64,000 nt of DNA. Source: Iodidimonas sp. SYSU 1G8 (GTDB lineage: Bacteria > Pseudomonadota > Alphaproteobacteria > SMXS01). This document shows, piece after piece, positions 23,376 through 26,789 of the stretch (within the stretch, counting starts at the first letter, position 1; every line of letters begins with the position of its first letter). The stretch covers positions 1,302,001 to 1,366,000 of the forward strand of contig NZ_JBBYXJ010000001.1 of assembly GCF_039655775.1 (NCBI RefSeq). Direction: 5' to 3'. The notes under the pieces are model-generated. The model was not told where the DNA came from. It saw only the letters and a program-made list of their open reading frames with translations, and searched no databases. The translations under genes were made by a program, and so were the position numbers.

Positions 23376-23990
23376 ATGCCGGATTTTTCCATCGAACTGG
23401 AGATCGGCGGCATTGTCGCCGGCGTGGATGAAGCGGGGCGCGGCCCGTGGGCCGGGCCTGTGGTGGCGTCGGCCGTCGTGCTGGACATCGCGCGTGTTCC
23501 AGACGGCATCGACGATTCCAAGAAACTGCCGCGCGACCGGCGTGAGCATCTGCACGGGCTGATCGTGGCGTCGGCCCATGTGGGTGTCGGCATTGCCACG
23601 GTCGAGGAGATCGACCGCATCAATATTCTACAGGCCACGTTCCTGGCCATGCTGCGCGCGGTGGAGGCCTTGCCCGTACGACCTCACCACCTTCTGATCG
23701 ACGGCAACCGCTGCCCCAAGGACGCACCGTGTCCGACACGCCCGGTCATCGGCGGTGACGCTACCAGCCTTTCCATCGCGGCGGCCTCGATTATCGCCAA
23801 GGTGACGCGCGACAGGATCATGGCGGAACTGGCCACCGCGCATCCCCACTACGGTTGGGAGCGGAACGCAGGATATGGTACGCCCGAGCATCAACGAGCA
23901 CTATCGATGGTGGGAATAACCCCTCATCATCGCAAAAGCTTCTCGCCCATATATCGACTCATGAATCAGGATTCACCAACAAGTGTTTGA
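23376..23990 (+). CDS. rnhB: ribonuclease HII
   Basis: RNase HII cuts RNA in RNA-DNA hybrids and single ribonucleotides in DNA. The 204-residue protein has GVDEAGRGPWAGPVVASAVVL (in two parts, Asp and Glu catalytic), DDSKKLPRDRRE, LLIDGNRCPK, ASIIAKVTRDRIM and HPHYGWERNAGYGTPEH. The C-terminal tail after HHRKSFSPIYRL adds about nine residues (to TSV), and its DNA carries three GANTC sites, with a fourth spanning the stop codon. Confidence 0.95.
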   Translation: MPDFSIELEIGGIVAGVDEAGRGPWAGPVVASAVVLDIARVPDGIDDSKKLPRDRREHLHGLIVASAHVGVGIATVEEIDRINILQATFLAMLRAVEALPVRPHHLLIDGNRCPKDAPCPTRPVIGGDATSLSIAAASIIAKVTRDRIMAELATAHPHYGWERNAGYGTPEHQRALSMVGITPHHRKSFSPIYRLMNQDSPTSV

Positions 23991-24059
23991 TTCAACACCG
24001 TGAATCGCCGAACTTAATAGTTGACGTGAAGAATCGCCTGACTCACCATGGCGCGAATC
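23956..24059. promoter_or_regulatory. cluster of eight GANTC methylation sites upstream of ccrM
   Basis: GANTC occurs at 23956, 23963, 23970, 23989, 24002, 24031, 24040 and 24055. From base composition about 0.35 sites would be expected in 104 bp. The cluster spans the rnhB 3' end and the ccrM leader, so CcrM probably reads its own methylation state here. Confidence 0.85.
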
Positions 24060-24085: not shown

Positions 24086-26241
<2,156 letters not shown>

Positions 26242-26303
26242 GGGCGGGCGGTTCTCCGGGGAAAATCGTTGCCAGCCGGAAGGCGCGCTGTCAAAAGAGT
26301 CCC

Positions 26304-26789
26304 ATGAGCGCCAAACGCACGAGCACCGGAACACGCCGCTTCGGCGAGTTGGCCAGGCCGTTGCTGACGCCGGCGCTGCGCCGGCAGGGTTTTGCCCAGC
26401 ACGAAATCGTGACGCGCTGGCGCGACATCGTCGGCGCCTTGCTGGCGTCCCGCTCGCTGCCGGAGAAATTGCAGTTCCCCTCGGCCGAGCGCACCGGCGG
26501 CGCCCTTTTCATTCGCGTCGAAAGCAGCTTCGCGCTGGAGTTCCAGCATCTCACACCCCAAATCCTTGATCGGGTGAACACCTATTACGGATACCGGGCG
26601 GTGACGAAGCTGATTCTGAAGCAAGGTCCGATTCCACGCCCCGCGCCCCTGCGACGGCAACCGCCGGCGCCCCTGTCGCCCGAGGTGGAACGCGACCTGA
26701 ACGAAAGCCTCGACGCCCTGAAGCCCGGCCCGATGCGGGATGCGCTTGCCCGGCTTGGCCGGAAAGTGCTGGCAGACCCCTCACCCTAA
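26304..26789 (+). CDS. dciA: DciA-type replicative helicase loader (DUF721)
   Basis: This 161-residue protein matches the DUF721/DciA family, which loads the replicative helicase DnaB in bacteria lacking DnaC. The conserved segment is LLTPALRRQGFAQHEIVTRWRDIVG, split here as LTPALRRQG and ITRW-like TRWRDIVG, then GALFIRVESSFALEFQHLTPQIL-type strand order. The C-terminal third is Pro-rich and probably disordered. It is divergent from mutY, with 62 bp between start codons, and precedes the DsbA-like gene. Confidence 0.85.
   Translation: MSAKRTSTGTRRFGELARPLLTPALRRQGFAQHEIVTRWRDIVGALLASRSLPEKLQFPSAERTGGALFIRVESSFALEFQHLTPQILDRVNTYYGYRAVTKLILKQGPIPRPAPLRRQPPAPLSPEVERDLNESLDALKPGPMRDALARLGRKVLADPSP

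Follow-up and report, generated by a model that had tools for sequence, protein, structure and literature searches.

A candidate methylation-sensitive ccrM promoter within a dense GANTC cluster of Iodidimonas sp. SYSU 1G8

The window, that is, the whole 64-kb stretch of DNA analysed here, comes from Iodidimonas sp. SYSU 1G8 and contains the genes rnhB and ccrM one after the other on the forward strand. Judged by full-length homology, the DPPY motif and a C-terminal RAMA domain, the ccrM product is CcrM. It matches the full length of the NCBIfam CcrM model (1e-188, 626 bits, below the model's cut-off of 830) and the solved Caulobacter CcrM structure 6pbd over 9-359 (4e-163), with FADPPY as its DPPY motif. 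Its Pfam domains are PF01555 (N6_N4_Mtase) and, at the C-terminus, PF18755 RAMA. In 137 of the 197 ccrM loci examined, an RnhB C-terminus could be recognised immediately upstream, and therefore the rnhB-ccrM neighbourhood is old. A MutY-like frame, identified by eye, lies convergently at 25180-26334 of the window on the reverse strand, sharing 4 bases with the end of ccrM. If the two contigs of the genome form one circle, the distance between dnaA and ccrM is about 1.1 or 1.4 Mb for the two ways of joining them; with the origin near dnaA, ccrM would lie roughly 55-72% along a replichore. The features of the junction are given below in window positions, the promoter elements being predicted and numbered from the predicted start.

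23376..23990, + strand: rnhB (ribonuclease HII), upstream neighbour of ccrM; Pfam RNase_HII, 1.1e-44
23956..23960, + strand: GANTC site 1, GACTC; in rnhB; found in 5/6 genus members
23963..23967, + strand: GANTC site 2, GAATC; in rnhB; lost in several genus members
23970..23974, + strand: GANTC site 3, GATTC; in the C-terminal codons of rnhB; in 9/9 family members as GATTC or GAGTC
23989..23993, + strand: GANTC site 4, GATTC; lies across the stop codon of rnhB; 8/9 family members
24002..24006, + strand: GANTC site 5, GAATC; at about -54; 9/9 family members
24014..24017, + strand: TTAA near -42, a possible half-site for CtrA; conservation limited to the genus
24021..24026, + strand: TTGACG, inferred -35 element of the ccrM promoter; TTGAC unchanged in 9/9 family members
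24031..24035, + strand: GANTC site 6, GAATC; in the spacer between the -35 and -10 elements, at +10 from TTGAC
24040..24044, + strand: GANTC site 7, GACTC; -16 to -12; in 9/9 family members
24044..24049, + strand: CACCAT, putative -10 element after a 17-bp spacer; class consensus CANNNT; A-11 at 24045, T-7 at 24049
24055..24059, + strand: GANTC site 8, GAATC; spans the predicted start (about 24056); 6/6 in the genus, absent in other genera of the family
24098..25183, + strand: ccrM, GANTC adenine methyltransferase, 361 aa; NCBIfam, Pfam and 6pbd matches

The initial annotation had placed eight GANTC sites in 104 bp just upstream of ccrM, and all eight were found, at 23956, 23963, 23970, 23989, 24002, 24031, 24040 and 24055, with the ccrM ATG at 24098. 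As it had also stated, the rnhB tail supplies part of the cluster: three sites lie in rnhB codons and a fourth over the stop codon, the other four being intergenic. Its expectation of 0.35 sites was about right, since we computed 0.21 per 104 bp from the window rate and 0.38 from local composition; the corresponding Poisson probabilities of at least eight sites are 8e-11 and 7e-9. The window as a whole is depleted of GANTC (135 observed versus 308 in dinucleotide shuffles), which is consistent with the predicted methylation of this motif by CcrM. The whole genome (3.92 Mb, 2 contigs) contains 42 GANTC triplets with gaps of at most 30 bp. When sites with such gaps are merged into chains, no chain exceeds four sites apart from the ccrM cluster, with eight, so that the cluster is unmatched in the genome. 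The next-densest chains, of four sites each, are at G000:C2:824383-824426, G000:C1:350930-350993 and G000:C1:727096-727167.

Comparison across 84 alphaproteobacterial families reveals a predicted sigma70-type ccrM promoter sitting inside the GANTC cluster. From the position of the -10 element, ccrM transcription is predicted to start near 24056, and the eight sites would lie at about -100, -93, -86, -67, -54, -25, -16 and -1. Three of them would thus fall inside the promoter itself, at about -25, at about -16 and across the predicted start. The site at 24040 shares its last base, a C, with the first base of the -10 element (24044), and it could be methylated on the adenines at -15 (top strand) and -13 (bottom strand). 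Methyl groups at these two positions would lie in the stretch of DNA that sigma regions 2.4/3.0 approach. Binding of CtrA at the TTAA of 24014-24017 is a guess. A full CtrA box (TTAA-N7-TTAA) near -35 was not found at the locus, either in the sequence or in the family alignment, which hold only the TTAA half-site.

Nine members of the family of the window were aligned, six from the genus and three from other genera. GANTC is retained in this alignment while the flanks and the central N change; the site at 24040, for example, goes from GACTC to GAATC in two of the nine. The position of the spacer site varies by 1-3 bases among relatives: in the three members from other genera the GANTC at +10 is missing, and each of them has one at +7. 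Within the genus, the fixed bases of GANTC are conserved in 28/32 columns, versus 35/64 of the other columns of the cluster (Fisher P=0.001). Such a pattern would be expected if the sites were selected to remain methylatable within a promoter.

The arrangement was then compared across the class by collecting ccrM upstream regions from 80 named loci and from genomes of 84 alphaproteobacterial families, and tabulating the distances from TTGAC to GANTC with one count per family. A GANTC starts exactly +19 from the start of TTGAC in 38/84 families. Secondary peaks appear at +8 to +10 and at -15, while the remaining offsets mostly occur in 0-8 families, the exceptions being -16 (10 families), +2 (12) and -5 (9); a GANTC at +2 overlaps TTGAC and one at -5 abuts it. 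When the 38 core families are aligned on TTGAC, an A at +24 and a T at +28 are invariant (38/38), although these were not selected for. They correspond to A-11 and T-7, so that the register matches a sigma70 -10 element preceded by a 17-bp spacer. The -10 element of the core families is CANNNT, its C closing the GANTC, whose central N is C in 29 families, A in 8 and T in 1. Most core families also have a spacer GANTC at +7 to +10, and many families have one at -15 from TTGAC, near -50. Among the named loci, 65/80 carry the strict pattern (Rhodobacterales, Rhodospirillales, Parvibaculum and others), which is absent from the Phyllobacterium and Pelagibacterium loci of this set. A weaker motif, e.g. 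TTAACCATTTGATTC or GTAAGTCATTGATTC, holds the -50 GANTC in many of the 38 families, at about -25 to -11 from TTGAC (near -60 to -46), and its TTAA part is possibly a CtrA half-site. Three loci of one genus (L016, L017 and L018) bear the conflicting titles Sphingomonadales, Rhizobium sp. and Candidatus Kuenenia, so the public labels of these assemblies are unreliable.

Upstream regions of ccrM hold on average 3.4 GANTC per 250 bp across families, versus 0.4-0.8 for seven scrambled motifs and a background of 0.37 in the named loci. Orthologous regions are therefore GANTC-rich throughout the class. This enrichment, together with the conserved columns of the genus, bears out the view of the initial annotation that the sites are part of ccrM control and under selection. 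It had also read the eight sites as a strong, graded readout of methylation, and this part found no support: between families a register of one to three promoter sites is kept while the total drifts from 0 to 10. The count is loose and the register tight, so that a readout graded by number lacks support, although it is still conceivable. Likewise, the conserved sites had been likened to leader sites, but they belong to the predicted promoter (near -25 and -16) and not to a transcribed leader. The cluster of the window is the density record of the ccrM set, with 8 GANTC in 104 bp. Four other families have seven sites upstream of ccrM, and one has ten in 250 bp; the latter case is locus L183 (family f108), from a genome without detectable GcrA.

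Within the Iodidimonas sp. SYSU 1G8 genome the promoter arrangement is essentially unique to ccrM. TTGAC-N14-GANTC occurs 9 times versus 6 for the control, and the relaxed form TTGNN..GANTCANNNT 8 times versus 4. The seven relaxed matches other than ccrM, near the number expected by chance, are all inside long open frames, and examination by eye gave no preferred TTGACG-to-GANTC spacing in this genome. A genome-wide class of such promoters was consequently rejected.

Several known systems resemble this locus in part. Methylation at the own site of the CfrBI system is reportedly involved in the control of its expression, a finding attributed to Beletskaya (2000), as cited in PMC3874152. Methyltransferases of CfrBI-type restriction-modification systems share with ccrM a link between the enzyme's own recognition site and the control of its gene, but CcrM is a solitary, cell-cycle methyltransferase with class-wide vertical conservation. 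In the IS10 transposase promoter a Dam site lies over the -10 element and methylation directly inhibits transcription in vitro, the hemimethylated form being intermediate (PMC3701705). Adenine methylation would fall inside a sigma70 -10 region in both cases; IS10, however, does not involve a methyltransferase gene, and its enzyme and motif are different (Dam, GATC). The MamA promoters of Mycobacterium tuberculosis also have a methylation site overlapping the -10 element in one fixed configuration, but there methylation at -10 can raise expression (PMC3701705), several unrelated genes are affected without autoregulation, and the positions are different. Closest is Caulobacter crescentus ccrM, the same gene with GANTC near its start, where methylation is said to couple ccrM to replication (PMC2217572, PMC10073500). 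Its promoter is said to contain two GANTC (PMC10073500), and its transcription to occur only on hemimethylated DNA (PMC2217572). As far as promoters can be compared by description, the locus of the window differs in its eight sites and in a -10-overlapping GANTC held in a fixed register. For the Caulobacterales, GcrA-type control of ccrM is predicted to have been lost (PMC7987155). Earlier work counted GANTC upstream of genes without regard to position (PMC7987155, PMC2877005): the prediction of ccrM as a GcrA target rested on motif scores and counts (PMC7987155), and GANTC was counted in promoters with no conclusion drawn (PMC2877005). We found no description of the register TTGAC-N14-GANTC-ANNNT in the open-access literature searched.

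We lean towards the proposal that the cluster is a self-limiting, methylation-sensitive ccrM promoter, repressed by methylation until the replication fork passes. RNA polymerase carrying the housekeeping sigma factor would use TTGACG (24021-24026) and CACCAT (24044-24049) to start near 24056, with one GANTC at the upstream edge of the -10 element, a second in the spacer, a third across the start and five further upstream. On fully methylated DNA, the major groove would carry N6-methyl groups at the edge of the -10 element and within the spacer; these would hinder polymerase binding or opening, perhaps with the help of a methylation-reading protein, and ccrM expression would be low. Passage of the replication fork would leave the sites hemimethylated, the promoter would fire and CcrM would accumulate. 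CcrM would then remethylate its own promoter sites and shut itself off, giving a replication-coupled, self-limiting pulse. The start site, methylation in vivo and pulse timing are here those that we infer. We favour methylation-repressed autoregulation because IS10 is inhibited by methylation and Caulobacter ccrM is active when hemimethylated; the sign of the effect is thus borrowed from these two systems. Some considerations speak against this proposal. About half of the families are without the strict core, so the core is not essential for having ccrM. Conservation of the weak -10 promoter could partly preserve GACTCA for another protein. Moreover, Caulobacter promoters with GANTC between -35 and -10 are activated in S phase whereas those with GANTC outside are at their minimum (PMC4287350); given these timing data, GANTC position alone would not fix the sign of the effect. 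A bolder hypothesis, which we regard as tentative, is that the promoter is an ancient device of epigenetic autoregulation shared by the whole class, with sigma70 RNA polymerase as the direct reader of methylation of the GANTC at -16/-12 and no need for a reader protein such as GcrA.

A role of GcrA has to be weighed in this respect. GcrA could read the methylated sites and activate ccrM together with sigma70 polymerase, methylation being needed for transcription or boosting it and the many sites recruiting GcrA. The genome of the window encodes GcrA and carries GANTC between and over the -35/-10 elements, a combination expected of a GcrA-dependent promoter; GcrA binding needs GANTC methylation, and its footprint at ctrA P1 covers -35 to -10 (PMC3667746). 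According to PMC7987155, ccrM is a predicted core GcrA target in many alphaproteobacterial orders, although not in Caulobacterales, but the register to the -10 element is stricter than the need of GcrA reported there, where upstream and downstream sites both work. We searched genomes of good completeness for GcrA with PF07750 and our own 12-sequence profile. The promoter core is present in 11/20 genomes without detectable GcrA versus 46/85 with it, so that, uncorrected for phylogeny, core and GcrA presence are not associated and GcrA alone does not explain the core. We therefore consider GcrA control rather unlikely. The lack of such an association hints that methylation may act directly on RNA polymerase. 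The reader would be either the polymerase, or another protein, or a GcrA that may have been lost after fixation of the promoter or be too divergent for detection. The 11 near-complete genomes with CcrM and the core but without detectable GcrA (G068, G260, G060, G218, G084, G075, G138, G204, G277, G083 and G051) run counter to the idea that GcrA and CcrM with its promoter core always form one module.

The opposite sign, methylation directly favouring opening of the ccrM promoter, would produce positive feedback and a self-sustaining methylated state; a direct effect of this sign has been proposed for the promoters affected by MamA. There, the methylation sites lie over the -10 element in a fixed configuration, and expression falls when methylation is lost (PMC3701705); moreover, in ccrM the GANTC forces a C at -12, giving a weak -10 element that could need help. 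However, a cell that had once become unmethylated would have no way back, the Caulobacter gene is described as active in the hemimethylated state (PMC2217572), and the methylated positions differ, being the last -10 base and three bases downstream for MamA and -15 and -13 for ccrM. Altogether, positive feedback seems improbable to us. There is a slimmer chance that CcrM, or another hemimethylation-binding protein, uses the cluster as a landing or titration site, the overlap with the promoter being incidental: the high local density of GANTC and the conservation in the family of the upstream sites at -54 to -100 would fit, but the register is fixed relative to -35/-10 across families while total site number varies from 0 to 10. 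Chance or composition can practically be dismissed, for although the stretch is AT-richer than the window (46% versus 64% GC), P stays below 1e-8 even on local composition, and the cluster is unique in the genome and conserved in relatives.

Outside Caulobacter, little is known about what restricts CcrM to a brief phase of the cell cycle, and methylation-controlled promoters have so far been described mostly one by one. Here one register, TTGAC-N14-GANTC-ANNNT, found in dozens of families, makes the proposal directly testable in many species and in vitro. If the promoter were read by the polymerase, the enzyme's own mark would directly time its synthesis to replication.

The initial annotation had further supposed that the C-terminal tail of RnhB was lengthened for DNA function. 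We rejected this idea: its 15 residues after HHRxSF are ordinary, tails ranging from 5 to 51 residues with a family median of about 11-12. Tail length correlates weakly with the number of GANTC sites inside the tail (rho 0.33, P 0.01), as expected because longer tails hold more sites. On the ccrM side, four genus relatives (L097-L100) carry an additional GANTC in ccrM codons 2-3 (ATGGCGAATCC or ATGGCGACTCC), which is absent in the window. D-S or E-S, the in-frame reading of GANTC, is common in RnhB C-terminal tails (23950-23990 in the window), and in the family of the window a D to E change in this tail (GATTC to GAGTC) retains the GANTC.
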